DNA of 64,000 nt from Cubamyces lactineus (lineage: Eukaryota > Basidiomycota > Agaricomycetes > Polyporales > Polyporaceae), in the NCBI GenBank assembly GCA_022376465.1, contig JACDTU010000008.1, positions 744,001-808,000 of the forward strand, given 5' to 3'. The notes below the pieces were generated by a model. It searched no databases, was not told where the DNA came from, and saw only the letters and a list, made by a program, of their open reading frames with translations. A program made the position numbers and the translations under genes. Below are positions 27,868 through 63,782 of this stretch, piece by piece; the first letter of the stretch is position 1, and every line of letters begins with the position of its first letter.

Positions 27868-29663
27868 TCACTGGGGATAACCGAAGATCTCGGACAACCG
27901 AGGAGGGTAGGTACTAGGGTCGTCAGGGTCCTACATATGCGTCGTGTTAGTTCAATCACCAGTTGCGCCCCGTACGGTACTCGGACACGACTCACGTAGA
28001 GCTTCATGCTGTACACGGGATATAGCTTCTGAAGCGAGTATGCTTCCTCCATCGCATGCTGGCGCTGCTCAATGGAGGAATGGAACTCAGCTTTGACTTC
28101 CTCGTGCTCTTCGTTTAGAGGTCCGCGTTCCGGTAGCCGATCGTTCGGGGAACACGAGCCAATGCACCACCAGTGGATGGGGACGACTCCTTGTAATGGA
28201 CGGACCGTAGTTGTCGAGGACGCCGGCAGCTTCTTCTTTGGTACATTATCATTGTCGATTGGATCATGCCATGTCCTCTGCGATATTGGGAGAGGGTGCA
28301 ATGGCGGCGAAGTTGATGCTGCAGGAGCCCGTCGTCGTCGCAACACGATGCAGCAAAATGCAGATATTACAATGAATGTAATCGTGCCGCCGACAGCACC
28401 GACGACGACGACGGGGACCAAACTGCGGGACCTGCCCTTGGCACGCGTCGCTGTGTTTGGACTCAACACCGGTGAAGCGTTCGGTAGGTGTTCGTGCGAA
28501 GAAGATATCGACAGTAGAGTCGACGACGATGAAGGATCAAGCGTGCCGGGCCCGTGTTGTGCCGATGGGGGCTCGGGAGAACACTGGCCCCCCCTGGTCC
28601 GAGTCGGCGCAACAAGCGGAAGGGAGGTAGAGTGCGTGGACCCCGTCTGGGCTGCGCTGTTGGGTGGAATGGGCTGACTTGAGGCACTAGATCGCGGAGC
28701 ATGGCTCAACACAGAGGCCTGTGCTGAGCTACCGACTGAATCTGACATGCTGCTCCTTGACGTACTGTTACGCGTAGTGATTTGCGTGTGAATGGTACTC
28801 GAGCCTCCTGATGGCGACAAACTGGGGGCTACATTGTGTCAGTAAATCAGAACTGCCCGCCTAGAGATGACGATGCAAGCAGACACACGCTGTTCACTCT
28901 CCGCCTGCGCTTTTGCTGCTTGAGCATCGAAGGTATCGTCCCCCTGCCTGCGATCAGCAGAGATCTCATAGACTCCGCATCAAAGCGACGTACTATCAAT
29001 GGTATCCTCGCCCAAGCCGGGACTTCAATCCTGTCTAGCGCTCTAGTTCACAGGCGCATGAGTCCTCAGTCTTGTGCGTGCGATACGCATAGCCCGATTT
29101 TGTCGGCTACTACTCACGAAATGTTATATTGTTCGGCGCACAACCCGTGATTGAAATACACGCTGAAGCTATGAAGAGGTTGTCAGATCGCCGTTCAGGG
29201 TATAGGGCTTGAAGGAGACCCGCACCTATAAGGACTTTGCGCATTACACAGCAGGCATGCAGCCCATAAGGAGTAAGCCACTGTGTTACAATAACATGGA
29301 CTGTTGTTCGGGTCTACCAGGTTCAGCGCTGTTCAGAGGATGGGGGAAGTATGAATATCACACGCTCGAACTTACAGTCTGCCATGTTAGCATCAATATC
29401 GGCACAAGAACGCAAGAGAGTCGTAATGACTTGACATGGCGATAATCCTTGTATGCTATACGCCTACATTCGGTAGTAAGCATCATCGGACACGATGGAA
29501 ACTTGAGGTTAGAACGCACCCATGAGAACGACGATAGAGTGCATGCATTGCCAGGGAGTTGTATGATCACTCCAATGACATCAGGTAGCGTCCAAGCGGA
29601 ACCGATGAGAATGAGAAGACATATCCTCGCTAACCTCACGACAGGCTGACGCGGTAATGTCAT
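27868..29663 (-). CDS. Eight-cysteine receptor-like membrane protein, paralogue A
   Basis: Minus-strand exons: 29520-29663, 29376-29463, 29226-29313, 29118-29168, 28994-29030, 28889-28943, 27996-28828, 27868-27930 (452 residues, all phases closed). A signal peptide (MTLPRQPVVRLARICLLILIG) leads into the cysteine domain: C before SFSW at the exon 1 end, SPCQV, then CYCNTVAYSLWAAC and LLC in exon 3, and one Cys in exon 4. A Ser/Thr/Pro stalk (about 155-288) is followed by one membrane span (LVPVVVVGAVGGTITFIVI..., about 290-315), RRRR, and a cytoplasmic tail. The last exon encodes DPDDPSTYPPRLSEI and stops soon after. Beyond the stop, another frame still reads GTPGI, resembling the SAPEI/GAPEI endings of relatives, so the tail is probably truncated. 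Topology predicts a type I plasma-membrane or wall-facing protein. Function is unknown. Confidence 0.8.
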
Positions 29664-30573
29664 CACCACGGCGAAGTATTATGATAATGGGGACCCAGGG
29701 GTTTGTGAAGCAGAGGTAGAAAAGTGGGATTTCGACTCTGAGACCGAGCGGTTTGCTCATCCTGGCTTTATATCACTCAAGCGATGCGAGACAGTGAACC
29801 TCGTGGCCTGACGGGTGAGAATATGAGTGAAGATGAACGTTGAATTGAGACCGTGCACCCCTTACCCACAGACCTCTGCGAATATCACTTCCATCACTGT
29901 TGCAGTGGAGTAGCACCCAGCACGCTGACGGTAATAGTGCCGAACGGAGCGGAGCACGCCAGGTAGACGAAGTTCTTCGGGAGATGCATACGAAGATAAG
30001 TGTGCGGTACGTGATCTTCCTATTCGCTGGTGCACTTTCGTGATCGTACTGAGAAATGCGGCAGAGGCCGGAGCTTAGGTGTGTACATCGACCTCGGCAT
30101 GTCCGAGCACACATGTCAGACATTTCCACGACCGTGAACGCAACACTTGATGGAATAGCGTCCTGAATGTAGTTGATAGACGGCAGGGCTCCCGGGCGCA
30201 TGATGCAGACAGGTTCTAACTCCGAGTTCTGAGCCCTGGTGGTTCCCTTGATCAAGGCCCGTCCTAGGTTGAAACGGTGTAGAATAGTTACCAGCAGGAT
30301 CCCAGTGAGCAAGAAGCCAAGGCGGTTGACAGGACCTGGGCGAATCCTGGATACTGCAAGTTCGTTGTTGGTGTGTGATGGTATAAGAGAAGTAAGTAGC
30401 GAGTGCTTTATCCCACGCCTGGCGCTAATCCTTGCCCGTGTGGTGAACTCCGCAGAGGTGTTTCGTAGCGATTGTGGGTATGTATACACTGACGGACAAA
30501 CGGACGGCTCGGATGACTCGATGTGCACCCCGCCAGACGCAAGTATAGGCAGTTTTGTACCAGCGCCCAAATA
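29664..30573. other. Intergenic region between paralogues A and B
   Basis: About 900 bp. It holds the promoter of A and the terminator of B. A 265-codon minus ORF (29773-30570) spans it, but its composition is not protein-like and it has no family match; it is treated as chance. Confidence 0.4.
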
Positions 30574-32291
30574 TCAGTATACTTTGTATCCCTCCGAGTC
30601 TCGCGAGTCAGAGACCTGAGCTCGAGAGTCACGCCATTCCCCGGGCGCGCTGACAGCCCGCTCACCACCAAGGATCTCGGACAGCGATGGGGGGAAGGTG
30701 GTCGGGTCATCAGGATCCTGCACCAAATACATCATATCAGTGATAGATGCATCATAGCCCACTTTCAAAACACTCACGTAGAGCCTGACCGTATAATACG
30801 ACGGAACGGTCTTCGATAGCGTACTCTGTTCCGTAGACATAGGCGTATGAGACTGAGCGCTGACCGATCCATCGATTTCGCTCTCGGAATACTGGCTGTT
30901 GTCCGTACGGAGCTTGCGCGCAGATGAATCGTCCGTGAGAGCCGCTGCACTACGGCGACGGTGACGGCAGCGGCGAAGAAGGTGGAAAACGATACCAGCG
31001 AGAATGCAGATTCCAGCGCCCGCTCCCACGGCCGCACCGATGATAGCGCCCATAGAGGTCCTAGCTCGACCCATGTTCAGACTCGGGGAAACGGTGACTG
31101 TAGAACCCGGGCCCGAAGACCAAGAGGGCTCGGTTTGCGACTCAGGGACGGAGGGCGAGGTTGTGGCGGCAGCGGAAGTAGTTTGTTTTGAAGGAGTATT
31201 ATTGTTATCTGGCAGTATTGTGCTAGGAGACCGAGAAGTGGGAGAGACGTCGGAGGTGGAGTCGGCGATTTGAGAGGTTGTGTCTGGAGGAGACGAGCTT
31301 TGATGGTCCTGCGAAGTTGTTCCGGAACTCTGTAACGGTGAAGAGGAGCCCCGGGAAGACACTAGGCTTGAGACGAATAATGAAGTCGACATTATCTGAG
31401 ATGTAACGGGCGGTGGGACTTGTAGCACGTCAAAAGGTATCAGCATGTATAATCTAGCAAACAGTTGAACTGGCTGATGCCGCACACCTATTGATTTGCC
31501 ATTGACTACTTGACGCGCGGCTTGCAGATCGAAAATGGCTGACAGGTTGTTTGGCTTACATTCGTCCGTCAAATCGGGGAGATACTCCAAGTGGGTACCA
31601 GTCACGCTCACCAAGGGGTTGAACTCAAATGCCCAGGCAGGAACTACGATGTTGGCTGGAACTTCGCCATTATAGCTATAGGGATGTAACGCATGATGAA
31701 TGATATAAGGTCACTCGCTACTGAGCCTGTTTACTCACGACCCATAGCTAATCCCCGAGCACTGCCCATCGCTCAAATAATCAGCGAAGCTGTGAGCAGA
31801 TAGCGCCGAGTGAGATGAATGTTGGAAGCGTGTGCTGGAGGCGTGACGTACGTGTCGTAGCCTTCTCCATGACAATATTCGCATGCTGACCAGAGCGAGT
31901 AGACGACAGAGTTGCAGTAGCAAGGCGCGTTGTCTCCTGCTAGGCCGAATCGCAATTCGCATCCCGCTCTCCTCGTCGAGACAAAGACGATGGACACGAA
32001 CCTGTTCCAGAGGGCCCACCACAGGGCTGCAAGAGGTCGAGTCCAACTTCGCAGGGTGATTGTCCTGCAGAATTGTCCATCTGGGTATGACCGTGCCAGG
32101 ATGAGCACAAGCGACAACGAAGCGATTCTGAGACGCACCCAAGACCAGCTGGCGCCAACGCAGGCGTTGTCCTGTGGCCAGCTCACCGCACCCACGCGTA
32201 TATTGCGCACAATGAAGCCCGACCAGAAGAAGACGCGGACTAGCGAAGTCGATTTCCCCAGGAGCCTCGCGGTTTCTGGGCATCTACTCAT
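30574..32291 (-). CDS. Eight-cysteine receptor-like membrane protein, paralogue B
   Basis: Minus-strand exons: 32139-32291, 32002-32080, 31852-31939, 31739-31789, 31612-31675, 31488-31554, 30778-31418, 30574-30717 (428 residues). It has the same phases as A. The signal-anchor-like start runs into C-VGASWSW, GQSPCEV, CYCNSVVYSLWSACEYC and GQC, giving eight ectodomain cysteines. The stalk is rich in Ser/Thr/Pro (about 168-288). The membrane span is GAIIGAAVGAGAGICILAGIVF (about 291-313), followed by LLRRCRHRRR. The tail ends SYYTVRLY and, after a 60-bp intron, DPDDPTTFPPSLSEILGGER. That intron is a multiple of three without a stop, so retention would insert 20 residues. It pairs most closely with paralogue C (shared 64- and 67-nt exons and the FPPSLSEILG tail). 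Confidence 0.82.
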
Positions 32292-32981: not shown

Positions 32982-34644
32982 CTAGTACACCTCCGGGGCT
33001 TCAGGCAGATGCCCGCGCTGGTCCGCCCGATGCATCGGGTCCAGCACAGGCCTCTCGTCACCCAAGATCTCAGAAAGCGACGGAGGGAACGTCGTCGGGT
33101 CGTCAGGATTCTACCTTTGCGTCAATGCCGTCTGAACTAGAGTCGACGTTCATGGCACTCACATAAAGCTTCGGTCGGATCCCCGGTGGCGAGACTGCTT
33201 GCTTCATCGTTGGGGCATCCTCGACCGACTCGTCGAGATCGGTCTCCGTATTCCGGAGAGCGCCTTTCCGCGGCTCGTCCCCCGAAGAGAAGTCGGCAAG
33301 CGCGGGGACGATGCGACGTCGGCGCCGTCGCCGAAGGAAGACGAGGGCGAAGGCGAAGGCCCCGACGACAGCCGCGCCTATCACCCCTACGGTCGCCCCG
33401 ATGACAGTAGCCTTGGACGTCTTCCGCGCGCTACTCGAGTCCACGGCACCAGAGGTGGAATCCGGGCCCCAGGACGTGCCAGTCCGAGGCCATGCGTTCG
33501 TTTGGGTGTTGTTCGCCGACGTCGCTGGCGAGCCGTTCGACGCCGCAGTAGGAGAGCCCGAGGACGCAGATTGCATGCCGGTGGTGAAGCTCACTGAGAG
33601 ACTGACTCCCGTCGGTGGGAGATCGATGGTAGTTCCAAGCTGCGTAGACGAGGACCATATCCAGTGAGTGGACGTCGAAGCGGTGTCCGAGCTCGAGGAA
33701 GAGCTCGAAGTGGTAGTAGTCGCCGCAGGTGTCGTCGTAGGGCCTTTGTCGCGAGACGCTCAGGTGAGCTGGGGCCATACAGGAGACAAGGGCGACAAGG
33801 TCGCACAATCCGTCATACTCACATTGAGACTGGCTGCATCCCTGTTGCTTTGTCAACTGCACGTCGAAGGTAGCAGACTGATTCGTTTCCTTGTAGTATG
33901 TCCGTCAGACTAGGTTGTTCGTGGAGCACCGGGCAAGTGTCACGGTGATCGGCTTACCGGCGGCTGGAAGAGGTACGCCCAGTGAGGCACGACAGTGCCG
34001 TCAGGGATCGGGAGCTTGTAGCTGCGAACCGTATACATCAGCTCGCTCTCAGATCACGCGGCATTGCTGGGCACTCACAATCCAATGTCGACTTCGCCGG
34101 AGCAAGGCAAAAGACCCAAGTACTGCTGGAAGCTGCGTAATACATGGGGACAAAGTCAGAGGAGCGACCGCGACGTAGATCGACCATGGCACGCACGGAG
34201 ACCAGGTTGCTTGATGGCAGGCTTCACATGCTGCCCACATCGAATAAGTGACCGTGTTACAGTAGCAAGAGGAGTTGGTCACTGTCGAGACACGCTACAC
34301 GTCACTTCTCATCACAGAGAGGGAGACGCTTAGAACGAGGGAAGCGAGCTGACCTGCCTGAGCGGGTAAGCCACACAACGATATGAGGGCGAGCCCGACA
34401 TCGCACGGCGACTGCCCTGTGCTGCTGTACATCTGCAAAAAGCCACGTCAATCGAGAGGGCGTAGAACAAGGAACAAGAATGGCGTGGACGCACCCAAGC
34501 CCAGCTGTTGTCGGCACAGGACAAGTTTCCCGGGAATTGCGCCGGGGTTGCGCACATGCTACGCGCGCTGAAGCATGACAACACGACAACGACAGTGAGC
34601 GATGTCTTCATCGGCCCTCCCGCGCACGGATACGATCGAGCCAT
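32982..34644 (-). CDS. Eight-cysteine receptor-like membrane protein, paralogue C
   Basis: Minus-strand exons: 34495-34644, 34354-34432, 34197-34281, 34079-34132, 33958-34021, 33823-33889, 33163-33758, 32982-33110 (407 residues). An N-terminal signal (MKTSLTVVVVLSCFSARSM, after a 12-residue leader) precedes C-ADNSWAW, GQSPCDV, CYCNTVTYSMWAACEAC and LPC. The stalk is Thr/Ser-rich. The membrane span is ATVIGATVGVIGAAVVGAFA (about 283-305), followed by eight Arg. The tail ends in PKLY and then the separate exon NPDDPTTFPPSLSEILGDER, finishing PEAPEVY. The first Asp of the motif is Asn here, the only such change among the five copies that have it. An alternative start at Met 13 is possible and would leave a cleaner signal peptide. 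Confidence 0.82.
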
Positions 34645-36408
34645 GAGGTCTTGAGAGCTGCAGGTGTGTCCGTGTGTCCGGATACAAGCCCGAGGGGAGG
34701 GAGGTCAAGTCTGTGTTCGTCACCTCTGCGCGACCTCCTCCCGCATACTCACGACACTGCTTATAACGCACGCTTTGCGTTCTGTCAGGCAATGACAGAC
34801 ACAATCAAAGGAAGCCCTAACAGTGGAGGTGGCCATGCGGTCAACACTTTGTGCATCTGTTCGCAGGCGGAGATGCGTATATCAAATCCCCCCTCTATCA
34901 GACGTATTGTGGGAGATGCGGTGTGCGCATGCAGCTGTACGCAGTCCACGCACGCCTTCGTCCTGTCGCTGGCAGGACATCCATGTCTGATGGTGCGCAG
35001 TTGAATTTGACGGCTGCGGGGCCGGACGCCATCCATCGCATTTTTTGTGTTCACGGCGTTCTGCAGTGGCTGCGGTGCCCGGTTATGAGCATCGTTGACG
35101 TGCGCGAGGTCTGCGCGGCGGCACCTCACATGAACGACCTAGAAGCTTTGCAACATCAGCATATCGATATAGCACGAAGAGATCTTGTTTGAGGTACGTC
35201 ACCTGAGTCTGTATCGTGTTCAATCTTCGGAACATTGGTAGCACGAAGTTAACCTTGGATCTGCGAGCCTTGCTGTACTCACGAGTATTAGTGTCGCGAA
35301 TTCCGAAGGAATTTGCGAACGATAGTCTGAGGTGCCGTTGAATGATATCAAGAAGAAAGATCTACAACGGCCCGCATATATGCACCCCTTTCATAGTCTC
35401 TTTGAGGACATTTACTCGTCTATGCCCGTTAGACTGTACAGTGGTAGTGCAAATAGCAAGCGTGATCATGAGGTGGGCGCGAGAACGTCCGTCATACCTG
35501 CTCAGTGCTCACTTAGACGCCCTCGTGGCTCGCGCCCTCCAGATCTGAGATCGGCACGAATGCTCTCTTGCCTCCAACCATGACCATGCCTCCTCCCCTC
35601 TCATGGGGAGAGAGAGTAGAAATAATCGTCGCACATCATGCGCCGCACCCGGGTGCACTCGCCCACAGAACCACCCGTCGACACCGATTCAGATGCCGGT
35701 ATATGTGGCACGTCTCGTTGCTACGTCGACGACGACCGTGGCGCGACGTACGCGTACGTCCGGATCCCAGTCCATGAATGAAAGGTAGCGTCCTGCCCGG
35801 CGCTCCAAGCTCCGGGGAAGTCCTGTATTCCGCTTCAGTCCTGCGCGAGGCTGCTTCATTCCGCCGTGACGCACTGACGCCGCACACGAGAAGGCTCGCG
35901 CGCACGGGTGCGATTGGCCATTCCGGACGCGCCGCGGCGGAGGCGAATCCAGGGGGCTTCGACATCTGTCCGTCGCGCCGGCGCGTTCACGCTCAGGCTC
36001 TGTCGACGTCCGGCGTCGTGAGGTTCGCGCGGGGGGCTCGACGTCGACTCGGTCGCGTCGAGATGCCCCGCGCGGAGGCCGCCTTCTCGCCTTCTAATGC
36101 CACGATGGGCGGTGTATGTCCGGCCGGGATCGAATATCACAATATTGAATGTCGAGGGGAAGGATAAGGTGAGCACATCAAGGGCGCGGCGGGATCCCGC
36201 GATCGCTTGTTTCTAGTTTGGAATCTTTGAAACGCACCGCTTACATGCAATATCACTCTTAGATGTGGCCCTCCCGCATCGCGTGCGGGGCGCCGGGGGC
36301 GAGCGAAAAGTGGTTATATACGCCGATCCTCTGCGAGCACGCACGCCGTGATCGTCGCGCCCGTTTCTGTCTCGCGAGTGCTTGCTTGCGCCGGCCGTCT
36401 GTGTGGCG
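34645..36408. other. Intergenic region between paralogue C and the P450 gene (divergent promoters)
   Basis: About 1.8 kb between divergently transcribed genes. CATCTGTTCGCA lies at 34854-34865, about 210 bp upstream of C. The GC-rich part (35600-36200) contains overlapping ORFs up to about 130 codons with no family resemblance. A TATA-like TTATATAC at 36313 precedes the P450 start by about 95 bp. Confidence 0.45.
34854..34865 (-). promoter_or_regulatory. Shared upstream motif of paralogue C
   Basis: CATCTGTTCGCA on the plus strand, identical to 32467-32478 upstream of paralogue B, at a similar distance from the ATG (about 210 bp). Role inferred from recurrence. Confidence 0.4.
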
Positions 36409-38833
36409 ATGGCCTCTTCTACTATCCTTGGCCTCTTGGGCGCTCTCACACTCGCCATTCTGCTCGTTCAAGCACGCCGAAAGCCACATGCGGCGTACCC
36501 TCCTGGACCCAAGCCTCTACCCGTGGTCGGGAACATATTCGATCTGGCTAGTCGCGAGCTCTGGCTGTGCGCGACGCAGTGGGCGCAGAAGTACGGTATG
36601 TCGAAACATTTGCAGAACTCTATCGCCGCTGGGGAGGGCACGTTGGAGCTGTGGCGGGGAAAGTGACGTGGATCGCCTAGGGGACGTGGTGTATGTGCGG
36701 ATCTTCGGACAGGGGCTGCTCTTTCTCAACACATACGACGCGGCGCTGGACCTTCTGGAAAAGAAGGGCACGATCTACTCGGACAAGCCACAGCTCGTCA
36801 TGGCAGGCGACCTGTCTGTGTCCCCTTCCGCTCTTCACATCCCAGGACGTGTGCTGACTTGACTTGCAGATGCGGATGCGACAACATGGCACGTCTTCGT
36901 TCTGCGTGGCCACGTGCGCGTGCTCGCTGACAGACGATCCTCGGCAGGTCGCGTTCACCCGCTACGGGGACAAGTCGCGCAGACAGCGTCGCCTCATGCA
37001 GAAGGCGCTCGGCCCCAGCGCCATCCCCCGCTACCACTCCCTCCTCCAGATCGAGACCCAGGCGCTCCTCAAGCGTCTCCTCGACGACCCCGCAAACTAC
37101 GAGGGCCACATTAGGCGGTCAGTCCGCCGCCTCCCTCCTAGCCGTGTTTCACCCAGGGCTCGTGCTCACGTTATCACAGCTATGCCGGGAGCCTGACGCT
37201 CCTCGTCGTCTACGGCTACCGCGTGACGTCCAACGAGGACCCATTCTTGATGCTCGCAGAGGAATGCGTCGATATCCTATCAAACCACATCGCTTCAGGA
37301 GGTGGCATCTGGCTCGTCGACGTCTTCCCATTCTGTGCGTGCTCAGGTATTCTGCTGCTGGCGTGCCGCCCGCTGAACAGCCTCTTGCAGTGCAGCATCT
37401 CCCGGCATGGGCTCCGGGCGCTGGTTTCAAGAGCAAGGCGGCCAAGTGGAAGGCTAAGATGCAGGAGTTCGTCGACAGGCCGTTCGAGCTCGTCAAGAAC
37501 CGCATGGTACATATTTGCAAATGCAGCATGTCTTTCACTCCGCTTCATTGGGCTCACATACGGTCGTCCGTACAGGGAGACGGAACTGCGACTCCGTGCT
37601 TTTGCACGACGCTCCTGGAAGAAGAGCTAGGCGACGACGAGCAGGAAAATGCGCAACGTGATTTCGACATACGCTGGACGGCCAATTCCATGTACTCTGG
37701 TTCGTTCGTTCGCTCGCCTGCAACTATCCTCGACTCTCTCACTGACTTGCACCCGCTATTCAGCCAGCCTCGACACTGTACGCGTCTCTTGCACAGCTCC
37801 TTGGAGTCCCAGCTGACATGTATGCGCACCAGACGATGACCGTCATCCGCCACTTCCTGCTCCTCATGCAGCTCCATCCCGACGTCGCCGCCAAAGCGCG
37901 CGCCGAGATCGACTCCGTCGTCGGCACGGACCGCCTCCCGACCTTCAGCGACCGACCCTCCCTGCCTTACGTCGACGCGGTCATGAGCGAGTGCCTGCGC
38001 TGGGGCGCCCCGGTGCCTCTCGGTATGTCCTAGTGTCCTAGTGGCGTGTCGTCGTTCGGGCAATGTCCTGACCGGGCCTCGGTGTTCTACTAGGCCTCCC
38101 GCATAGGCTGATGGAAGACGATGTCTACCAGGGAATGTACGTCCCGCGCGGCACGCTCGTCTTCGCCAACGTCTGGTGCGTGCTATCACATTCGTTAGCC
38201 GCGCAGGCACGCGAAAACTTATCTACTATCTGGTATAGGAACATGACTCGCAACCCAGAGATGTTCCCCGACCCCGAGCGCTTCGACCCAGAACGATACA
38301 TGGCCGTGCCAGGCAACCCCGATCCTCTTGCTAGCAAGCGGGACCCGCGCAACTTCATATTCGGCTTCGGCAGGAGGTACGTCTTGTCAGACTTCACATC
38401 ATTACCCTTCTAGCGATTCCACGATGGCCTCTTGCATCCCCCCGCAAGGACGAGTGTGCTCACTCTCACATCCAACTCACCCTGACTGATATGCTCCGTG
38501 AACCACAGACGCTGCCCCGGCTCGCACCTCATCGAGTCCTCGCTCTGGATCGTCATCGCGTGCGTGCTCGCGACGCTCGACGTGCACACGGAGCGCGATG
38601 CGCAGGGAGCCCCGATCGAGCCCGTGCTCGTGTTCGAGAACGCTGTGTTCAGGTCAGTGTATTCCCCGCATCCCCCCTCCCATCAGAGCGTGTCGTCCTG
38701 GTCCGTTATTGACAGCGACGCGTGTACGCGTGTTTTGGGTACCTGCAGGACGCCAAACTCGTTCCCGTGCGCGATCAAGCCTCGTTCGAGCGAGGCGGCG
38801 CGGCTCATCAGCGCGTCCGCGGCGGCGCTCTGA
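36409..38833 (+). CDS. Cytochrome P450 monooxygenase
   Basis: Thirteen exons: 36409-36595, 36681-36813, 36870-36888, 36948-37117, 37180-37334, 37391-37506, 37576-37699, 37764-37777, 37833-38022, 38094-38175, 38239-38376, 38509-38652, 38749-38833; 518 residues. N-terminal membrane anchor (TILGLLGALTLAILLVQA), proline hinge YPPGPKPLPVVGN, KYGDVVYVRIFGQ, RRQRRLMQKAL (C-helix), I-helix remnant ASLDTT, ECLR (ExxR), FDPERY, and the heme loop FGFGRRRCPG with ligand Cys about 445. It belongs to the large basidiomycete group often annotated as O-methylsterigmatocystin oxidoreductase-like; substrate is unknown. Two oddities: a 14-nt exon (37764-37777), and an intron (36889-36947) that begins GC rather than GT. 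The GC-AG choice is needed to keep CGCDNM joined to VAFTRYG. It is ER-anchored and transcribed opposite to the receptor-like genes around it. Confidence 0.9.
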
Positions 38834-40257: not shown

Positions 40258-41928
40258 CTAGCACACTTCGTAGATTTCCGGAGCACTGCTTGGGTTCACG
40301 GGAAGCCTCAGGGGTAGACGTCCTTGCAGGTCAGCTAGCCGAGGGGGATAAGTGCTTGGATCATCTGGGTCCTGCAGATGTGACGTGCGGGTTTAGCCCT
40401 CGTGGGCTGCGCTCCGAGAACACAGTACTCACATAGACTTTCATAGTGTATGAGGTTGGAGCAAATGGGTTTTCTCCCGCTGGCTGAATAGCCGAATGTG
40501 AGTCGGCTCCCACACCCGCCAATCCCTCTTCTACTTCTGTTTTCTCGCGCCTATTGTCGGCGCCGACCTGCAGAGGCTCGCATCCCGGAGATTCAGCGCC
40601 GAATGCCCTAAAGCTGCCGCGGCGACGCCATCGTCGAGCGAGACACCCGACAGTAATGATGATGACCACTGTGATAGCGGATCCTACGACACCGCCGATG
40701 ACGGAACTTCGCGAGCTCACCCTCGCGCCGGCAGACTGTGTCGAGCCGGGGCTTGAAGGTGTGTGCGTAAAAGATGTAGGGGAATCCATCGAGGGGTACG
40801 AGGACTGAGAAGTCATGGATCCAGAAGGTGACTGGCCAGTCTCTGTAAGTACACCAGAGGTGCGAGGCCCGGACGATGGGCCTGGTGGCACTGTTGATTG
40901 CGAAGTTCCAGCCGTCTGCGCTCCATTGTCAGGCAGCGAACCGGAGATTCCCTTTGCAATTGGCGAGACAGAAGGCTGTGCGGAGGAATTTGACTCGGAA
41001 GTCTGTGCTGGTGTGTCGTTTGTCTTCGTTGCAGGGATACTGCTACTTTGAGGGCTCTGTATTGAGAGCGTGGCCGTATGAGCATTTGATGTCGAACCAG
41101 AAGCTACAATATGTCAGAAGACAGTGCGGGAGTAGTGTGACAAGAGCATACGTACGTTGCATACTCGCCGCTGCTTGTTCCGCGGCTTGGACATTGAAAG
41201 TCTCGTCATCCTGTTTCCAATGGGATAGGCTGAGATGAGTTTGACAATTTAAGTACTCACTATCAGTGGTAGATTTGCCCAACCAGGGACGTCTACTCCG
41301 TTGGACGATCTTCCAAAACGGAGCATGTGTCCTGTCAGGAAGCCCTTTGCTAGCCCGAGATGGATTCACAGCTCACAGTGCGTCGTACAATTGGGGACAA
41401 TGCGCATCGCTGAGGTAGATCGAGAAACTGCGTGTGGTCCACATGTGAGAGCTAGCACCAATACGAAGACTGAACGTCCCACCTGTGCGGAGATTGTTCA
41501 ATACACAACGAACACGCCGCCCAGAGCGAATATCCCATTGAGTTGCATATACACGGGTACACAACGCCTGCCAGTAGCGGATCATTTGGCATCCAACGTT
41601 CGGGCAAAGGGGCCGGGGTAGTTGCGATGGTTTATCACCTACCAGCGGAGTTATTACACGTCTGCATCAGCTCCGCCTCTACTTGACAAGGCGTCAGTCC
41701 CTGAGAGTTGTACGCCTGCGATGGGTGGTGAGGTACAGCTTGACTCATCTGGATATTTGAACGCACCCACGAGTACGACGAGGTCAAGCATGAGCCGGCA
41801 ACAGCTTCGTTCGACAATATCGCAGCATATCTGCAAGGAATTGAACCTAGAAGACTGAGCACCAGGAAGTAAGCTCTGGCAAGCCGGGTCGCGCCATTAG
41901 CGTTAGCTAGCCAGGTCATTGCGAGCAT
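40258..41928 (-). CDS. Eight-cysteine receptor-like membrane protein, paralogue E
   Basis: Minus-strand exons: 41767-41928, 41643-41715, 41483-41567, 41377-41427, 41261-41309, 41156-41210, 40433-41103, 40258-40371 (419 residues). A signal peptide (LARAYFLVLSLLGSIP) precedes C-LTSSYSW, GLTPCQV, CICNSMGYSLWAACSLC and AHC. The stalk is Ser/Thr/Pro-rich (about 160-290). The membrane span is VIGGVVGSAITVVIIITVGCL (about 293-313), followed by RRWRRR. The tail ends TSYTMKVY and, after an intron, DPDDPSTYPPRLADLQG, closing APEIYEVC. The first intron is a read-through multiple of three. The 73-, 51-, 49-, 55- and 114-nt exons match paralogue F exactly. The start was placed at 41928; the next Met, three codons on, is equally possible. 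Ligand and role are unknown. Confidence 0.82.
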
Positions 41929-42455: not shown

Positions 42456-44120
42456 CTAGCGCACCTCGTAAATCTCCGGAGCACCGCTCACGTTCACAGG
42501 AGCTCTCATAGGCAGCTGCCCACATATCTCGGACAGTCGAGGAGGATATGTACTGGGATCATCTGGGTCCTACGTATACCAATAACAGGTCCACTTCAGT
42601 GACAGTCCGTGCTACAAAAACACAGCACTCACGTAGAGCTTCATGGTATACAGGGCCTGTGCGGGTGTGTCTTCTTCCTGTGGCAATTCGACCGACGAAC
42701 GCAACTCGACCTTCGGCTCCTCCATCGTGTCTTCTTCTACCACCGGCCCATCATCGAGGGGCTGGCCTCTTGAGAGCTTCCACCAACCCAACAGTGCATT
42801 GGTGCCCAAGGTTTGCTTTTGGTTACGACGCCGGCGTCGACGAACGACATTGAGCGCAATACACGTACTAGCGATTGCGATCAGTGCCACGCCGCCCACG
42901 GCACCAGCGATGATAGCGCCCAGATGGCTCGAACTGCTCCCGGCGGCGTGCATCGAGCCGGCAGTCGGACTTGGTCTAGCCTCAGATTGTGAAGACTGCA
43001 GAGATCCCGTCGTGTGGAGCGTTGTTGTGGGCTGGAAAGACGGCTGGCCAGACGTTGTGAGGGTAGGTTGAGGCCCAGATGGTCTGCTGCTAGTCGGCGA
43101 ATCACTCGTCTGGGCTTCGTCGCTCGTTGCCGCTGGTCCAGTTTGCTGGCCTGCTGCACCGGTCGGTGACGATGGGCTAGATGACTTCGGAGGAGAATTC
43201 GACTGGGAAGGTGACGGTGCCGGAGAACCTCCTGGATTTGTCGGGCTGCCATCAGGAGTACTGTTGATCTCGGATGAAGTACCTCGTGTCGAGGGCAGGG
43301 ACGTATGTCCGTTAGTCGATGCTGAGTTGGTGGCTACATCGCAACAATGCTTGAGCTTGATACAGGGACACGTGAGGTAAGGAACACGCACATTGCGTAC
43401 CCTCCGCCTCTTGTTTAGCCGCCGCGACATCGAAAGTATCATCATTCTACGAGGGATTAGCTCAACCACACATAGGAGTGATGCTGGAGGAACTCACTAT
43501 GAGTTGTATATTTGCCCAACTGGGGATGTTAGCTCCCTCCAGTGGTCTAACGTTATGAACGGATCATAGCAACCTAGGCAGACTCATGCATCGGGTGACT
43601 ACTCACGGATGCGTATATTCCTGCAAACATTGAGCGTCGTTGGAGTAGTCACTAAAGCTACATGCACAGCGTCAAAGCAGAACGGACATCGGCACTCACG
43701 AGCATACCTGTGGGGGTTTTGTCCGTTGCACAGCGAACATGCAGCCCAAAGTGAATACGTCACTGGGTTACAATAACATTGGTTGTCGCCTATCAGCTCT
43801 CGCTAAGCCAAGTGCATAGGTGAGGATGAACGATCGAATATGACAGACCACGAGAGTTCCCGCATAGTTGTATGACATCCGACGCCACTTGACAAGGCGA
43901 CTGACCCTGCGCGTTGTACGCCTACGAACAGCGATTAGGTGCTTGTGGATTCGCTCTGGTGCAGGAGATTGGAACGCACCCAAGAATACGACGGGTCCGA
44001 GCACGAATCCGCCACCGGCTGGTCCAATGCAGCAGCTTTCCGGATATTTGAGGTCAGAAGGTATAGCATAAAGAAAAACGCTCCCGAAAAGCGAGCCCGA
44101 AGACCGTCTCGTCGCGACAT
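42456..44120 (-). CDS. Eight-cysteine receptor-like membrane protein, paralogue F
   Basis: Minus-strand exons: 43980-44120, 43849-43921, 43708-43789, 43607-43657, 43498-43546, 43392-43446, 42633-43333, 42456-42569 (421 residues). Signal peptide FSGAFFFMLYLLTSN, then C-SDPSYSW, AYNAQGQSPCQV, CYCNPVTYSLWAACSLC and AQC; IPSWANIQLI and NDDTFDVAAAKQ close the ectodomain. A long Ser/Pro/Thr stalk precedes the membrane span (GAIIAGAVGGVALIAIASTC, about 289-312) and RRRRRR. The tail ends in ALYTMKLY, then the separate exon DPDDPSTYPPRLSEICG, finishing APEIYEVR. The exon 2 donor is GTCTGT, weaker than the GTAGGT used by paralogues E and G, but the phase is kept. The closest relative in the window is paralogue G at 62154, in the opposite orientation. 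Confidence 0.83.
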
Positions 44121-54196: not shown

Positions 54197-57100
54197 ATGT
54201 TCAAGACACATATCTTGTTCAGTTCCGTGTCTTTGCGATTCTCGGAGCCCCAGAAGCGGGCAATCCTTAGCTGGGGCGACTCAATGGGCGCCAAGAATGT
54301 GCCTAGCCTCTACGCACTGAAAAAAGTAGCTGACAACGTCGAAGAGATTGTCGGGAAGCCTACTATCAAGGTAGTATCAGGTACCGGCGACATATTCTAT
54401 ATGAACAAGGTGCATGACGCCATAGCGAAGGTGCGTTTCCGTCTGAACTATGTGTTGATCGGGACGGTAACCATACTCTACAATAGGACTACGGCAATCC
54501 TCTAACACGTCTGTCCATGTCCGACTATCCTCGGGATGGCGGGAAGGGGATGTCGCAGGTCCAGAATGGAAAGAAGATGTTGCTAGATCTGCCTTCCGAA
54601 CTATCGTCCCCGGCTGTGCGTATCAACGGGCAGATATTCTTTGTCGATGAGTTACTGCGCTGCCACGATGGGTCCTTTTTCATCCCCGAACGTTTCTTCT
54701 ATGCTGCAACAGCGGAACCAGGGTCATCTTTAGGCTCAGAGACGGCGCCGTTGATATCAGAGGAACTACACGCTCTTGGGCGTCAGGTATTTCGAGAAGA
54801 GGTGCCCTTGTTGTCCATGTTTTGTTGTATATTTATTCTGAGAAGTTCTTGTTAGTCCGGGTTCCAAGTGGCTGAAGAGCGGGTGATTGTACCAACAAGT
54901 GCATTTAATCTGTCCTACGAGCAGCTTCGTCAACTCGGGGACTTAGAGTGCGGGTTTCCCGGTGCGAACCGTTCCTAATGTCTGTGCTTTGTGTCGTATT
55001 GAGGTTGTGTTTGTCTTGGCTCCATAGACAGTGCGAACGTCTACGCTTCGAAAATGCCCAACCCCTGGCGTGCCAAAGCACAGGGCCGGATGGTTTACGG
55101 TGTTCCATTGATCATCTTCATGGACGATGTGTCTGGTAATGTCTCAAAGCAGTGGAACAAGCATCATGTCATCTACATGTCCAATGCGAACCTACCGCGA
55201 GAGATGCTGGAGAAGGAGTTTTGTGTCCGCTTCGTTACCTCCTCTCCGCACGCATCTCCGATGGAGCTCATGGCAGCGATGCGAGAATCAATACAGTATG
55301 TGATTTTTGTGATGTATGGCCAACATGATTATAACAAGCATCCCATTAATAGGAACGCGTCCGAGACTGGGGTCCCTGCGTGGGATTGCAAGTATGATGA
55401 AGAGGTGCTTCTCTGTCCATACGGCCTCTTTCTCGGAGGCGACAATCCGATGCATGCCGAGGAATGCAGTCATGCGGGTCTCAATTGTAACTACTTTTGC
55501 CGTACATGTGATGTTGGTGGCACGAAGGCGTTCAAGCAGAGTCTTGAAGGATACACGAAACTATTTGAGGTATGACGGTAGAACCTTGAGTTTAATGAGA
55601 CTGATTGATTGTCTTGTACGGCAGCCAGGGAATATTCGCACACCAGCCGCGACACTCGCCGAAGTAAAGCGGCAGATACCAGGTGCATTTCTGGCAGGAG
55701 ACAAGATGAAGGAGGGTGTTTCGCAGACAGGAGTCCGAGATGCTACGACGACGGCAATCCTCGAGTGTGTTGTCGAGCTTGGCAAGAAACTGCGCAAGAG
55801 GGAGGCCGGCCGCTCGCAGCTGTCAGAGGAGGAGGTACGAAAGCAACTTGAGGCGGAGCTGGAGAAGGTTTTACAAGGGAAAGATATCAAAGAGCATATC
55901 AACCCTCTTTTGGGTATGCCGGGTACGTACTCCGCATATTTTTACTGAGTCCGACCGTTGAGTCTGAGGACACTGTGCGCAGGCCTCGACGTGCATATGG
56001 ATACTCCGACCGAGGTGCTACACACCGTACTCCTTGGTGTTGTGAAGTATTTCTGGAGCCAAACCGTCACACTTCTCGAGAAAGCAAAGGCTATGGAGAC
56101 CTTTTACAGACGGCTGCAGTCCATTGGCACAGGCGGCTTGAATGCGGAGGCGCTGAATGCCGAGTATATATGCCATTACAAGGGCAGTCTTATTGGTAAA
56201 CATTTCAAGAGTCTCGCTCAGGTTATGCCATTTGTTGTCTATGACTTGGTACCGGCTACTGTTTTGAACGGCTGGAACGTATTAGGGAATCTCGTGGTCC
56301 TGTTATGGCACACCGAGATTGTTGACACAGAGGCGTATTTGGTCAGCTTCGCACGTTTGTCTCGGAGTGCGAACTTTGAGTTACTAATCTATTGTCAGGC
56401 CGAGCTATCACGCACCATCGAGGACTTCCTGAACATTACGGCTCAATGTGCACCAAGTATCCTCATCACCAAGCCTAAATTTCACTTCCTTGTCCACCTT
56501 CCCGCCTATATCCGACGCTTTGGGCCAGCCATCCTTTTCTCAACGGAGCGGTATGAGAGTTTCAACCATATATTTCGCCAAAGCTCTATCTATTCCAATC
56601 GTCAAGCTCCGAGTCGGGACTCTTGTAGAGCATTCGCAATGAACGACATCATGAAGCATGTCGTCTCCGGTGGATACTGGAAGGACCCTAAAAGCAAGCG
56701 ATGGGTGCGCGCAGGGCATGAGGTTTTGGAGTATATGGCATCCCACCCGGAGCAGGCAAAGTTCATCGGCTTGCCAGCTATTCAACCACCGGTAGCCGCT
56801 CCAGGTAAGCCGTTCGTGGTCGCTTTTTCACAGGTGACAGGGAAGAGGTGATTTCGATATTTTCTAGGTCAAGTGCGATTCCATTCAGACAAGGATACAA
56901 CATCTGGTAAAGTCAAAGCGATCAAGGTATTCGATTGGCGGGCCACCCTCGCATCAACGTGCACTACGCTACCTGCTCGGCAGGTAGCTAAAGCTACTTC
57001 AGTTAGTCTTGCCCAGGGAGATGTCGCACACGTCTCGGGAGACGTCTTGGTATCAGTTCCGGGACAACAGGCGGTACGTTTTTAGAAACTTACGTTTTGC

Positions 57101-58894
57101 AGCCTTATTGACAAAGCCCTGCAGCCGGTTGTTGCCCACGTCCTAGAGATCCTTGTCGATGTGAAGGATCTTACGAGCAAGCTGGCGTCGCATATTGTAC
57201 TTCAACTTTACGATTTCCTCCCCTCCCTTCACCAACCGCTACGCCTGCCGCGACTCACACGCACGGACAAGAGGTTAGCTGTGTGCCCCAAGGTTCGTCG
57301 TGTTCAATCTACCATACAGGTCGCATGTTCGCTGAGGCGAATCAACAGGCCCTCATATGCGTAGTCAACGTCCAACACGACTGTTGTGCATCTGAGTGCA
57401 ACGAATTCGAGGCAAGAGCGAAGGCCCAGGAGCGGGAGACATCAATGAAGATGCGTCACGTTGTCAAACATAAAGACACGAACATGTGGCTGCTTAACAC
57501 GTACTCAATCCACAACTACAGTGCAATCAAGGGTGCTATTCCCGAGGGGCTGCAAATACGCGATCGCTTTGTCCCTGAGGCGGATGTTCCTGCAGTACGG
57601 GCGGCAGCTGTGGAGACCATGAAAACGAAGGCGCAGGAGAAGAAGAAGGATGCGGATGGAGACAAAGGCAGCATGCAAGCGAAGAAGAGCCAACACAACG
57701 CGAAGGGGGCAAAGGGGGCGAAAGGGGTGAAGGAGGTTCCCAAGGCGGTTGCAACTGAACCCGAGGGTACTCGTTTCGTCGCCTCCGCCTCGAGTTTTCC
57801 CACCGCCTCCGCCTCGAGTTTTCCCACCGCTGTCGCTTCGAGTTCTCGAGCCGCCACTCCTGGTATGGTGGTGCCGACCGCCATCCCTCACGCAACAATG
57901 CCTCGCGGAATAAGACGTGGGGAGTTGGCGCAGGCTACGCAGCCTGCCACACTGCCGTCCTCACAGACGTCGACGATGCTCACGGCGATCGACCTCATGA
58001 CCTCTCAGGCTGCCGACAACCCTGCTAACACCCGCCCGACAAACCCACTGAGCTATCGCACATATCACGATGTATGCGAGTTAATTGCCCTTTGATTTGG
58101 GGTACGCGCACTGATTGAACACAACGAGCAGATGGTGAGTGAGCTACCAACGCCAAAGCGTAGACGGCCGGACTTCAACGTTGTACCTGATGTCTATCCG
58201 GTGAGTACAATCCTTAGATCTGGTCTAGTAGTGTTTACTAATGCGTACTTAGGGCTGGAACACACCGCTACCCTACCAACACAACGCAAGTAATCAGCCG
58301 TCACCCGCCTCAACGACACATCCAGAGTCGTTGGGCACAGCGGCCAACGCGGCATCTGAAGCGCGTCAGTACTACCCTCAGCATAGACCCGAACATCTTC
58401 GCCCAGTACAGCAAATACCGCCACCCGTTCATTCCTCATACAACCACCTGTATGGCTATGGGACCGCCCATGGTATGACAGTGGTTAGGCCCGGGGACTC
58501 TAGCCACACTATGAATACTCCTCAACAGCACTATGGGTACCCTTTGGGTAGCAACTCAGCCCCTTCGTATGCTGGAACATCCGAGCCTGAGGAAACCTTC
58601 GCCATGCGCTCTCATATCGGCGGCTACAGCAGCCACAACATCCCTGCTGCCCCCCACATGTCTGCTCACTCACAACTACAGACTCCCTTGCATACCTATA
58701 CCTCTCCGGGGCTCTACGGACTCGGGTCGAATGGACCTACTTCCAGAATTCATCGCCATGGTCATCTCTCCCGTGCCATGCTGCCGGAAGGGGAGGATTT
58801 TGGGGAAGTTGGTGGAATGGGTACTGACTTTGATGCGACCGCGACGGAGAACGTAGATGTAGATATGTTTGAGTGTGACTACTATGTCCCATAG
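54197..58894 (+). CDS. Transposase-like protein of the 9.5-kb element
   Basis: Exons: 54197-54430, 54487-54786, 54856-54961, 55028-55295, 55353-55569, 55625-55922, 55983-56341, 56399-56804, 56868-57073, 57125-57292, 57349-58071, 58132-58200, 58253-58894; no stop interrupts the 1331-residue frame. Landmarks: SEPQKRAILSW, SMSDYPRDGGKGMSQV, PLIIFMDDVSGN followed by KQWNKHHVIYMSNANLPRE, CPYGLFLGGDNPMHAEECSH, a CNYFCRTC cysteine pair, LDVHMDTPTEVLHTVLLG, HYKGSLIGKHFKSLAQVMP, FLVHLPAYIRRFGPAILFST and ERYESFNHIFRQ. This is a very abundant multicopy protein type in agaricomycete genomes. Its Asp-rich DDVSGN block and late conserved Glu would suit a DDE nuclease. The C-terminal 400 residues are low-complexity (Lys/Ala, ASASSFPT repeats, then Pro/His/Ser). 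A further 5' exon is possible. Nuclease function is inferred. Confidence 0.75.
57779..57829 (+). repeat. In-frame 24-bp tandem repeat in the transposase-like gene
   Basis: Two copies of a unit encoding ASASSFPT, followed by a diverged third unit, near the start of the low-complexity C-terminal region. It is in frame and therefore a site of length polymorphism rather than disruption. Confidence 0.6.
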
Positions 58895-59088
58895 CATCAT
58901 TTATAACTTTGCTTTGCCTGTTTCTGCAAGCTGACGATTTCCCGCACCAACTTGAAGTGTTGTACCTCAAGCTAGCCGACACGCGCTAGATCACAATATG
59001 TGCAAACAATGCAAACAGCCAGCACGACCGTGAACTCGTTCTGTCCTGACCTGTCTTGCCATCCCAGGTGGGCACTGCGTCGCTGTCC

Positions 59089-60776: not shown

Positions 60777-61337
60777 GAGCTCGAGCAACCGACGGGGCGT
60801 CCAATATCCAATACGAAGTACTCTCGACGTCTTAATACCATTAATTGCTTTTCATGCACTATGCTTTACGATTGCTCTAGTTCAGTACTGTAGTTCCACA
60901 TTCTATTGTCCCGCGTATGCGATTCCAATAGCTAACCGATATCGCTTACATGCACCTATACTAATACATGGTTTCCCCAGACCTCGGGCATTGTACTGCG
61001 TAGACTCTGTCTAGTACTTGCCAGGGATGCGCCCAGCGTCTTCATGCTAACCTTTGTCTGACCCTGGGGCGTGGGTCTCTGTCCGAGGGCAGGGCGCAGA
61101 TATCTGCCCAATCCCAGAGGGCGAGTGTCTGCCTGTTCCCAGACGGGAAGTATCCGCCCGCGCTGTGTGATCCTACGGAGAGATATGTGAGAGAATCCCG
61201 GGCAAGCATCAGACGCTCGATATCACCCCAGTAAATACGGCGAGAGATCGGTCCGTAATGGGCTGCGCAAATACCAGGCCAGCCCTGCGTGCTGCCAACC
61301 TGATATCTGCGGCTCGCTGGTATCCCCCCGGTATCGC

Positions 61338-61355
61338 GCTCGTTTGGGCGTGTAG
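61338..61355 (-). repeat. Right terminal inverted repeat of the 9.5-kb element
   Basis: GCTCGTTTGGGCGTGTAG, the inverse of 51839-51856 with two mismatches. It is followed by CTACGC. Confidence 0.65.
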
Positions 61356-62153
61356 CTACGCCTGACTTCCCCGTGTCTATCCGCTCCTCGGTCCTGAATC
61401 CATCAGTACTCCGCAAATTCAATCTGCGCCTGTCAGGCGCGAGGACTCTCCGGAATTAACGAGCGAACGAACAGATTCTGACAAGGCGAGATGGGTGCAC
61501 AGCCTTGATTGACCTTGTGTCGTTTACTGTCTCTTCGCGGTGCTCCGATGCTCATGTCTTTGGGTTACTGTGCATCCTAGGTCGGTTGAGTCGGCGTGGA
61601 TTCAGCATCCCTCTCGTGCTAGGTCCGCCACGGGCAAACAACAGCACAGATTTAGATAACAAGGACCTTCCCTCCTTCATCCTCGTCGCCATCGAAGGAT
61701 TACAATTCGAAACCAACACCGCAGTGGCACAAGCGCGAAAAGAAGAGGAGGTCACATTGCCCATCCGAGCCCGCCGTCTTCCCACGGGCTTGCCTTCTTC
61801 TTGGGCCTTCCGAGATGCCACGGGCCACCCAGCATCAGCCGCAGGTGGATGGCAGATGTGGATGATCGCGAGCACTGGCATTGGCAGGGGCGGCTGTCAA
61901 TGTCTGCTCTCCCATCGCGCTTCTCGCCTGCTCGCCTGCGCCCGGAGCGATATCTGCACAAGGACGCGTTGGGAACATGGGACGAACGGGAAGCACGGGA
62001 GATGCCTGGGCGACTCTGAGCGACTCTGAGCGTCGCTTATAATCGCCGGGCGGATGCGCGCGGGCGGCCTACGTTTCGCCCGCCTGTCTTTGCGTGTCCC
62101 TTGTTTGTGTATCGTGATCTTCCGCTCCTTAGTGCCGTCGCTGGACTTCGGCG
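61356..62153. other. Intergenic region between the transposon and paralogue G
   Basis: About 800 bp containing the promoter of paralogue G. A 174-codon plus ORF (61505-62029) shows no family resemblance. The TGCGAACA motif found upstream of B, C, E and F was not seen here. Confidence 0.45.
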
Positions 62154-63782
62154 ATGGCTCGACAATGTAGGCTTGCGTCTCCTGGGGTGCTCATGAGACT
62201 CGGGCTTGCAGTTGTTTTCTTTTCCGTCTCGATCTCCTGGAAGGTCGCTGCGTTGGACGAGCCAGTGGCGAATTCATGCTCAGACCCGTCGTATTCTTGG
62301 GTACGTTCCAATCTCCAGCATCGGAGTGAACACGCAAGAATTTCATCGCCGCTTGCAGGCATACAACTCACAGGGCCAGTCGCCTTGCCAAGTAGCGTCT
62401 GAAGTCATGCAACCATGCGGTAACACTTATGGTAGGTCATATTCGACTATACATATTCATTTATACATTCAGCTTAGCGAGATCTACTAGGCAAAAACGA
62501 ATGTTATTGTAACCCAGTGACGTACTCGCTTTGGGCAGCATGCTCGTTGTGTAACGGACAAAGCCCCCACAGGTACGATCATGGGCCTCGACTCCGATTT
62601 CCATCTGACATTATGCATGTAGCTTCGGCCTGTATTTTAACGACGCGCAATGTGGAACCCAATACAGTTCACCGTGAGTAGCCAATCCATGAGTCTGCTC
62701 AGGTCGATACGAATTGACTCTGATTTTGCATTATCACGATAGACCATCCGATGGGCCTGACATCCCCAGTTGGGCAAGTATACAACTCATAGTGAGTCTC
62801 TCCAGCATCATTCCTTTGCGTGGTTGAGCTGATCCCTCGTAGAACGACGATACCTTTGATGTTGCGGCGGCTAAACAAGAGGCGGGGGGTGCGCAACGTG
62901 CGTGTTCCTTACTCCACGCGTCTCTGTGTCAGGTTCAATGACTGGTGTGATGTAGCCTCCAATTCGGCGTCGACTGACGGACATGCAGCTCTGCCCTCAA
63001 CACGGAGTCCTTCGCCTCATAGTAGTGATACTCCCGATAGAAGCCCTACAAATCCAGGAGGTTCTCCGACACCGTCACCGTCGCAGTCGAGCTCTGCCGC
63101 GCAGTCATCTATGCCATCGCCACCAACCGATGTAGTTAGTCAACAGACCAGTTCACTGCCAAATCACGAAATCCAGACAGGAAGTTCGCCTACCAGTGCA
63201 ACTGCTGGCCGACTATCGGGACCTCAACCTGCTGCCCCCGCAGTGTCTGGCCAGTCACCTCCCCGACCGACGGCAGCACCCTACACCACTGGCTTCCTGC
63301 AGTCTTCACGATCTGGGGTTGGCTCTCCCAATACAGAGGGCCGTGCACAACCGAGCACGTCGCCACCACCAACTTACGGCTCGATACAGTCTGCCAGAGG
63401 CGGCTCTCGGAACCACATGGGTGCTATCATCGCTGGTGCCGTAGCTAGCGTCGTCCTGCTCCTGATTGCTGCCTTCGTTGCGCTTTGCGTCGTCCGTCGG
63501 CGGCGGCGGCGTCGTAACGCGAAGGAAGCGCTAATCGCGAGTGGCCCACTGGAATGGTGGATGCGCCCCGGAGGGACTCCCATATGGCACCCGGATCCGG
63601 AGCAGTCTGAGTGCAGGACGATCGAACCAGAGGTGCGTACTCTTCCACTTGCCGTAGAAATATTACTGATCAAGACGGTCAACGCGCAGCCTGAAGAGGC
63701 AGAGTCGGAGGTCTCCACTTTGCCTGGTGATGACGTCTCTGAGAAGAAATCCGTCAAATACGGCAACTACCCTGATTTCTGA
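62154..63782 (+). CDS. Eight-cysteine receptor-like membrane protein, paralogue G (lacks the DPDDP exon)
   Basis: Plus-strand exons: 62154-62300, 62359-62431, 62491-62572, 62623-62673, 62743-62791, 62843-62897, 62956-63782 (427 residues). Exons 2-6 have the same lengths as in paralogue F. Signal peptide MRLGLAVVFFSVSISW, then C-SDPSYSW, AYNSQGQSPCQV, CYCNPVTYSLWAACSLC, AQC, IPSWASIQLI and NDDTFDVAAAKQ. The Ser/Pro/Thr stalk is longer than in F. The membrane span is MGAIIAGAVASVVLLLIAAF (about 308-330), followed by seven Arg. Unlike the other five copies, the tail does not end in the YTMKLY donor junction. The frame continues to SVKYGNYPDF and stops, and no DPDDP exon is visible in the remaining 220 bp. 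Either the motif exon was lost or the tail was replaced, so signalling or sorting through that motif may be absent. Confidence 0.82.

Follow-up and report, generated by a model that had tools for sequence, protein, structure and literature searches.

Organization of the gene cluster

The window, a stretch of 64,000 nucleotides from the genome of Cubamyces lactineus, contains six related genes. Five of them lie on the minus strand: A (positions 27868 to 29663, encoding 458 amino acids), B (30574 to 32291, 427 amino acids), C (32982 to 34611, 391 amino acids), E (40258 to 41928, 416 amino acids), and F (42456 to 44120, 418 amino acids). Gene G (62154 to 63782) is on the plus strand. In our spliced models all six are open and have GT-AG introns, which upholds the initial annotation in its claim of six related genes with the same parts. 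NCBI protein models match two of the six: P0001 is nearly identical to the gene A product, with a few junctions that differ, and P0002 is the gene C product minus exon 1, the remainder being identical.

The intron phases 0, 1, 2, 2, 0, 1 are shared by all six genes, as had been claimed, and in A, B, C, E, and F a seventh intron, also of phase 0, lies just before the last exon. The proposed division into A alone (exons 2 to 6 of 88/103/51/49/46 nucleotides), a B/C pair (79/85/51/64/67 and 79/85/54/64/67), and an E/F/G trio (73/85/51/49/46 in E, 73/82/51/49/46 in F and G) agrees with the exon lengths. The G model was built without a last intron. By analogy with genes I and J, outside the window, we propose one at 63633 to 63689 on the plus strand (GAG/gtgcgt...cgcag/CCT, phase 0), a position that matches the last intron of the other window genes; it would be followed by a last exon at 63690 to 63782, found by a tail-pattern search of the genome. 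The G frame is also open without this intron.

The six genes are real, but the cluster described as six-membered is larger: it continues past the window and spans about 53.5 kb with 13 members, of which eight have complete models and five were followed one exon at a time. H, I, and the six window genes are open over 381 to 458 amino acids. R is a truncated relic and the first exon of J was not placed, and thus some members may be dead. Introns are absent from K and L, and from H and I as read. An agaric-type orthologue, L021, is retained elsewhere in the C. lactineus genome.

Each of the six window proteins has the surface, single-pass, receptor-like build suggested earlier. In gene F, exons 1 to 6 (43401 to 44120, minus strand; spliced model and alignment) encode the signal peptide, assigned by eye as in the other genes, and the eight-Cys ectodomain. 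The eight ectodomain Cys residues are invariant in the alignment of all six, with one additional Cys in the counted ectodomain stretch of C. Because 25 ectodomain columns are invariant across the six, their likeness exceeds chance. The first two Cys residues are 16 residues apart, and a core of C-x-C-x4-(Y/F)-x4-(A/S)-C-x2-C was recognized by eye in every protein. The stalks consist of 49 to 55% Ser/Thr/Pro, and a hydropathy scan shows a single helix-like stretch followed by basic runs, Arg runs among them. In an AF2 model of the relative P0026, the eight-Cys domain (residues 11 to 140) has block means of pLDDT 89 to 97. The head is predicted to be mostly helical; head models gave no significant fold match in the PDB, and no Pfam family matched the ectodomain.

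Relatives and conservation by part

Relatives of the family occur across several Agaricomycete orders. A homologue search gave at least 13 matches, eight of which were judged to belong to the family (among 7994 scored candidates), and a second one gave 37 matches at E<=1e-3, the query counted. P0003 of C. menziesii is a relative of C and P0005 of Cubamyces sp. a relative of B; relatives of B, C, and E/F are present in other Trametes/Cubamyces. The named matches are annotated as hypothetical, uncharacterized, predicted, or “transmembrane” proteins, and two are named after a helix-only EGF-receptor model. Since the matches bear such generic names and no described eight-Cys single-pass family was recognized among the literature matches listed, the earlier statement that these proteins are unnamed in agaricomycetes and functionally undescribed still holds. 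Across 45 family proteins compared (P0001 and P0002 of C. lactineus included), the Cys core is found in 44 and a DPxDP tail motif in 38, and 33 have a Yx3P(E/D/L)-hydrophobic C terminus.

Ectodomain dN/dS was 0.20 for F/G and 0.62 for H/I; the values for E/F (0.27), E/G (0.13), and B/C (0.24) are rough, their ectodomain dS being above 1.3, and the A/F ectodomain was saturated. Stalk dN/dS, where measurable, was 0.41 (F/G), 0.40 (E/G), and 0.65 (A/F). The diversifying selection proposed for the cluster thus receives no support from per-domain values, none of which exceeds 1 where measurable; these are pairwise, and selection at single sites could escape them. Between C and P0003, 103 of 116 ectodomain positions are identical, compared with 66/106 stalk and 61/98 tail positions. 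Conservation is thus concentrated in the head; apart from its motif, the tail varies to the same extent as the stalk. The suggestion that the stalks vary while the Cys core and tail motif are kept stands for the head; it fails for G, which is without the tail motif.

Two tail types and their heads

The tail motif attributed to all six genes is present in five and absent from G, which has a different tail. The type-1 motif, (K/R)-(L/V)-Y-(D/N)PxDP(S/T)T(F/Y)P, is encoded across the phase-0 intron in A (SMKLY/DPDDPSTYPPRLSEIFGYPQ), B (VRLY/DPDDPTTFPPSL), C (PKLY/NPDDPTTFPPSL...PEAPEVY), E (MKVY/DPDDPSTYPPRL...SAPEIYEVC), and F (MKLY/DPDDPSTYPPRL...GAPEIYEVR). The last exon of F (42456 to 42569, minus strand), obtained from the spliced model and the tail-pattern search, is an example. 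The pattern has 12 exact matches in the 36.3-Mb genome (reversed control, 0), 10 of them in the eight-Cys family. The other two are in genes with unrelated, cupredoxin-like heads, which have the identical tail type and an intron at the same place; a related cupredoxin-like gene has a GPI-like end and no motif.

A second tail type ends in KKSVxYGNYPD(I/F) and occurs on G (SEKKSVKYGNYPDF), I, and J only (three genome matches; control, 0). It contains no DPxDP motif but keeps a Y-x3-P-(D/E)-hydrophobic C terminus, spaced like the usual end (YTGAPEL). The ectodomains of the three type-2 genes represent three lineages, and each is closest to that of a type-1 gene: on the ectodomain trees G joins F, I joins H, and J joins O, and the starred branches force at least three changes of tail type. 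A single G/I/J ectodomain clade was rejected by a tree test, in which the grouping had been set by tail before the tree and much of the rejection is taken to come from the near-identity of H and I.

Two pairs of nearby genes within the cluster, H/I and F/G, combine similar ectodomains with different tails. H and I share 763 bp of DNA at 89.5% identity through the ectodomain exons, and no DNA alignment at 1e-5 was found past this stretch; dS is 0.12 in the ectodomain and saturated in stalk and tail. Because a TLGPPSQSI stretch is common to both stalks, H and I may be old duplicates with a homogenized ectodomain rather than a fresh chimera. For F/G, dS is 0.72 in the ectodomain and 0.74 in the stalk, and no recent exchange is seen. 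On the tree of the helix and juxtamembrane region F stays with G (91/91), and H with I is not rejected (p-AU 0.27). The pairing of J and O, genes about 76 kb apart, is seen on the ectodomain tree only, where its support drops to 90/83 when outside species are left out.

Candidate functions

CFEM proteins are fungal surface proteins with eight Cys residues that include C-x-C, features they have in common with the cluster proteins, whose first two Cys residues are, however, 16 residues apart; the CFEM domain was not among the profile matches listed for the six window proteins or 44 relatives. Snowball SNB1 (DUF6533), described in PMC10949477 as a surface protein that is conserved in Agaricomycetes and whose function is unknown, has seven membrane helices and belongs to an unrelated family.

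The closest likeness in build is to Wsc-type sensors (PF01822). Yeast Wsc1, according to PMC9024836, has a Cys-rich head, a glycosylated Ser/Thr-rich region, one transmembrane helix, and a cytoplasmic tail; the cluster proteins likewise have a Cys-rich head (behind a signal peptide placed by eye), a Ser/Thr stalk, one helix, and a short tail. The Wsc1 head has four disulfides, and the cluster proteins have eight conserved Cys residues. We reject membership of the WSC family: PF01822 was not among the matches listed for any of the six window proteins at E<=10 (a search whose filters remove most matches above 0.1), the families listed at 0.01 for 44 relatives did not include it either, and the predicted head is mostly helical. 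The C. lactineus genome has 14 WSC matches, on contigs C10, C25, and C40, with none on C42.

To judge from the sequences, the locus is somewhat more probably than otherwise an expanded, recombining tandem cluster of unnamed Agaricomycete single-pass, wall-spanning surface sensors. Our best reading is that these proteins work like Wsc1 without belonging to its family and that their heads and tails have been recombined; we infer a signalling role. The glycosylated stalk would keep the head within the wall or raised above it, and a ligand or wall strain would cause the protein to cluster or move. Since it persists in different orders and on unrelated heads, the tail motif may dock a common cytosolic partner. 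Recombination between the ectodomain exons and later exons would place a near-identical head on two outputs, and some genes may therefore behave as pairs.

The mammalian Siglec-11 and Siglec-16, neighbouring genes whose ectodomain exons are kept alike by exchange while their tails differ (PMC5701461), offer a parallel. H/I have the same layout and F/G an older form of it; the mammalian paired receptors are unrelated proteins, and the F/G ectodomains have diverged (dS 0.72). It is conceivable, if rather doubtful, that the cluster encodes fungal paired receptors, one head being joined to two outputs by recombination. Type 2, without DPxDP but with the usual C-terminal spacing, would then be a decoy or opposing partner, and the type-1 output module, also grafted onto cupredoxin-like heads, would be a plug-in of general use in mushroom surface signalling.

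A Ser/Thr/Pro stalk with a Cys-rich head is also typical of adhesins, and the structure models give the short tails mostly low confidence. The proteins could then be adhesins or structural wall anchors, with a head that attaches to glucan, chitin, or the surface of a neighbour and a tail that tethers or sorts without a signal. We regard this as unlikely, for pure anchoring would not require a motif that 38 of the 45 family proteins share and that recurs in cupredoxin-like genes; a relative of these genes has a GPI-like end in its place. Because of their shortness and low confidence, the tails could also serve sorting instead of signalling. Short, Tyr- and Pro-rich motifs and one tail on unrelated heads would suit endocytic or trafficking receptors that take up a bound ligand, with a difference in traffic between the two tail types; this is quite unlikely, since neither type appears to match any standard sorting motif known to us. 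The array of 13, its truncated relic, and the H/I-type exchange would fit a polypore cluster that serves to recognize microbes or other mycelia and grows through the birth and death of genes. The lack of any measurable pairwise dN/dS above 1 and the retention of L021 elsewhere make such nonself or partner recognition improbable. As improbable is a set of ordinary tandem duplicates on their way to becoming pseudogenes, whose mixed tails would have arisen incidentally through unequal crossing-over: R, the unplaced J exon, and the introns absent in K, L, H, and I as read are in keeping with this, but eight genes are open throughout, the F/G ectodomain is constrained, and B, C, and E/F have relatives in other Trametes/Cubamyces.

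To our knowledge, few single-pass surface receptors have been described in mushroom-forming fungi. With a defined head, a motif kept in most of its members, a tail that also occurs on an unrelated head, and a natural mixture of heads and tails, this family of mushroom surface proteins, as yet without a name, is open to experiment, and it can be asked directly which cytosolic protein reads the YDPxDPSTFP tail. Finding that reader would open surface signalling in mushroom-forming fungi.

Gene models and extent of the cluster

The window occupies C42:744001-808000 in a genome of 36.3 Mb in 43 contigs. Its six genes for eight-cysteine, single-pass surface proteins (A, B, C, E, and F on the minus strand, G on the plus strand) were modeled by hand and then checked by script; all six spliced models are open apart from one terminal stop. 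The intron phases 0,1,2,2,0,1 that the initial annotation had found common to the six genes are borne out by these models, which also recover its exon-length groups. Two database proteins of Cubamyces lactineus correspond to window genes: P0001 is a near match to gene A, and P0002 matches gene C exactly across the overlap. A, B, C, E, and F have a seventh intron, of phase 0, which splits a tail motif directly after Tyr: (K/R)(L/V)Y-intron-(D/N)PDDP(S/T)T(F/Y)PP. A tail motif shared by all six genes had been claimed, but G lacks such an exon. Its proposed seventh intron (63633-63689, plus strand) was read by likeness to I and J, two cluster members right of the window; if this predicted intron is spliced out, G ends in SEKKSVKYGNYPDF, and the frame is open also without the intron (script check).

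When the type-1 tail pattern (DPxDP) was searched against the whole genome, 12 exact matches were obtained, with none for the reversed control. Five lie in the window (A, B, C, E, and F), four just to its right (H, K, L, and N), and the other three in an agaric-type orthologue (C42:1296527; L021, C42:1292.5-1298 kb), on C2, and on C39. Reading of the flank adds seven members, H to N, on the plus strand up to about C42:825.3 kb (L016-L018, C42:807.5-832 kb), giving at least 13 members (A to N) across about 53.5 kb. For H and I, the check covered the complete protein, which is open in each; the other five were followed one exon at a time, J without a settled first exon. The tail of M, DPDDPDTYPP, escapes the pattern. 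Outlying relatives are O (L070, C42:891-893.3 kb), which has the tail pattern with one mismatch; R (L076, C42:897.6-899.9 kb, at about 899 kb), a truncated relic with first exons only and no membrane part in the 2.25 kb read; and Q (L071, C41:1200.0-1202.2 kb), with an eight-Cys-type head, a quite different long tail, and no long Ser/Thr stalk.

The window also holds a cytochrome P450 gene between C and E (36352-38700; PF00067 in one of four open stretches tried). Between F and G are three long open stretches (55003-58092), none with a Pfam match, which resemble mobile-element remains. A tandem pair of similar genes lies at 1661-5855, one stretch of which matches aldo/keto reductase.

Mixing of heads and tails

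The K(S/T)VxYGNYP pattern of the type-2 tail has three matches, all exact (G, I, and J; control, 0). By eye, this tail lacks DPxDP and finishes in YxxxP(D/E)-hydrophobic, the same spacing that YTGAPEL shows at the usual tail end. The ectodomain tree recovers three pairs, F/G (91/92), H/I (100/99), and J/O (97/89), and its starred branches require a minimum of three switches between tail types. The pairs persist when outside species are left out (92/96, 100/100, and 90/83, respectively), and a single ectodomain clade of G, I, and J is rejected (p-AU 3e-83), a rejection that we read as driven in large part by the near-identity of H and I. The tail tree including the last exon places G, I, and J together (100/99), a grouping to which the lack of alignment between type-1 and type-2 last exons contributes; without that exon, F stays with G (91/91), and H+I is not rejected (p-AU 0.27). 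The type-2 last exon is firmly placed on three head lineages.

A 763-bp stretch running from just 5' of the start codon into the intron preceding the stalk exon is 89.5% identical between H and I; beyond it, no alignment passes 1e-5. Their dS is 0.12 in the ectodomain and reaches saturation in the stalk and the tail, a step that is absent from F/G (0.72 in the ectodomain, 0.74 in the stalk). A stretch, TLGPPSQSI, common to the stalks of H and I counts against a fresh chimera, and an old pair whose heads have been homogenized would explain the data equally well. On either reading, the step in divergence falls at the head/stalk boundary.

The C2 and C39 matches belong to genes (L019, C2:55.5-60.5 kb; L020, C39:617.5-622.5 kb) whose head is unlike the eight-Cys type. 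Both have a membrane helix and end RYY-intron-DPDDPSTYP(L/P)PIPVI...; their tail intron falls between the same codons as that of the eight-Cys genes. A related gene (L075, C11:562.9-564.5 kb) has head and linker in common with them and a hydrophobic, GPI-like end without the DPDDPSTYP tail. We take all three heads to be cupredoxin-like, a label that found no confirmation in searches of Pfam and PDB. The simplest reading is that a single tail module, intron included, sits on two unrelated heads.

The family in other fungi and its conservation

A profile of the six window proteins matched 13 proteins, 8 of which were counted as family, both lower bounds since scoring was limited to the 7994 candidates with the most shared words; P0009-P0013 were left out as membrane-segment matches only. 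The gene C ectodomain alone gave 3 matches, itself included, and a Macrolepiota ectodomain gave 37 at E<=1e-3, likewise with the query, among them Agaricus, Laccaria, Coprinopsis, Galerina, and Mycena. The agaric relatives, Rhizopogon, and the polypores represent three orders; copy number per species cannot be derived from these matches. The family set comprises 45 proteins (50 returned minus 5 dropped, with A and C of C. lactineus counted in). Of these, 44 have the Cys core and 38 the DPxDP tail; 33 carry a Y-x3-P-(E/D/L)-hydrophobic end no more than 2 residues from the C terminus. By eye, the Rhizopogon model P0014 seems to leave the same tail intron unspliced.

No Pfam model matched the ectodomain in the six window proteins and 44 relatives searched. 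PF21314 is matched by 30 of the 44; the database names of P0030 and P0039, starting "Epidermal growth factor re...", apparently derive from helix-only matches to this model, a misleading annotation. The AF2 model of Laccaria P0026 has ectodomain pLDDT block means of 89-97 (residues 11-140), and neither of two predicted structure models has a significant PDB match.

Selection was measured as pairwise Nei-Gojobori dN/dS, in which several dS values exceed 1 and are rough. Ectodomain values are 0.20 (F/G), 0.27 (E/F), 0.13 (E/G), 0.24 (B/C), and 0.62 (H/I), with A/F saturated; stalk values are 0.41 (F/G), 0.40 (E/G), and 0.65 (A/F), with H/I, E/F, and B/C saturated. No measurable pair exceeds 1 in ectodomain or stalk. 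Between species, C and P0003 agree at 103/116 ectodomain, 66/106 stalk, and 61/98 tail positions, and B and P0005 at 79/111, 49/122, and 72/113, respectively.

Comparison with known surface receptors

No paper on the eight-Cys family was recognized among the literature matches listed, which for several topics are the top of longer lists. Exchange keeps the ectodomains of Siglec-11 and Siglec-16 alike in receptors with opposite tails (PMC5701461), a likeness to the cluster's mixture of heads and tails; the cluster proteins might act as paired receptors. The cluster proteins are not assigned to the WSC family, because Pfam searches list no WSC domain for the six window proteins or the 44 relatives; the same genome has 14 WSC-domain matches elsewhere, in groups on C10, C25, and C40. 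Wsc1 itself is a wall-stress sensor with the same layout as the cluster proteins (PMC9024836). From this shared layout, we infer that the cluster proteins may work like Wsc1, sensing wall stress.
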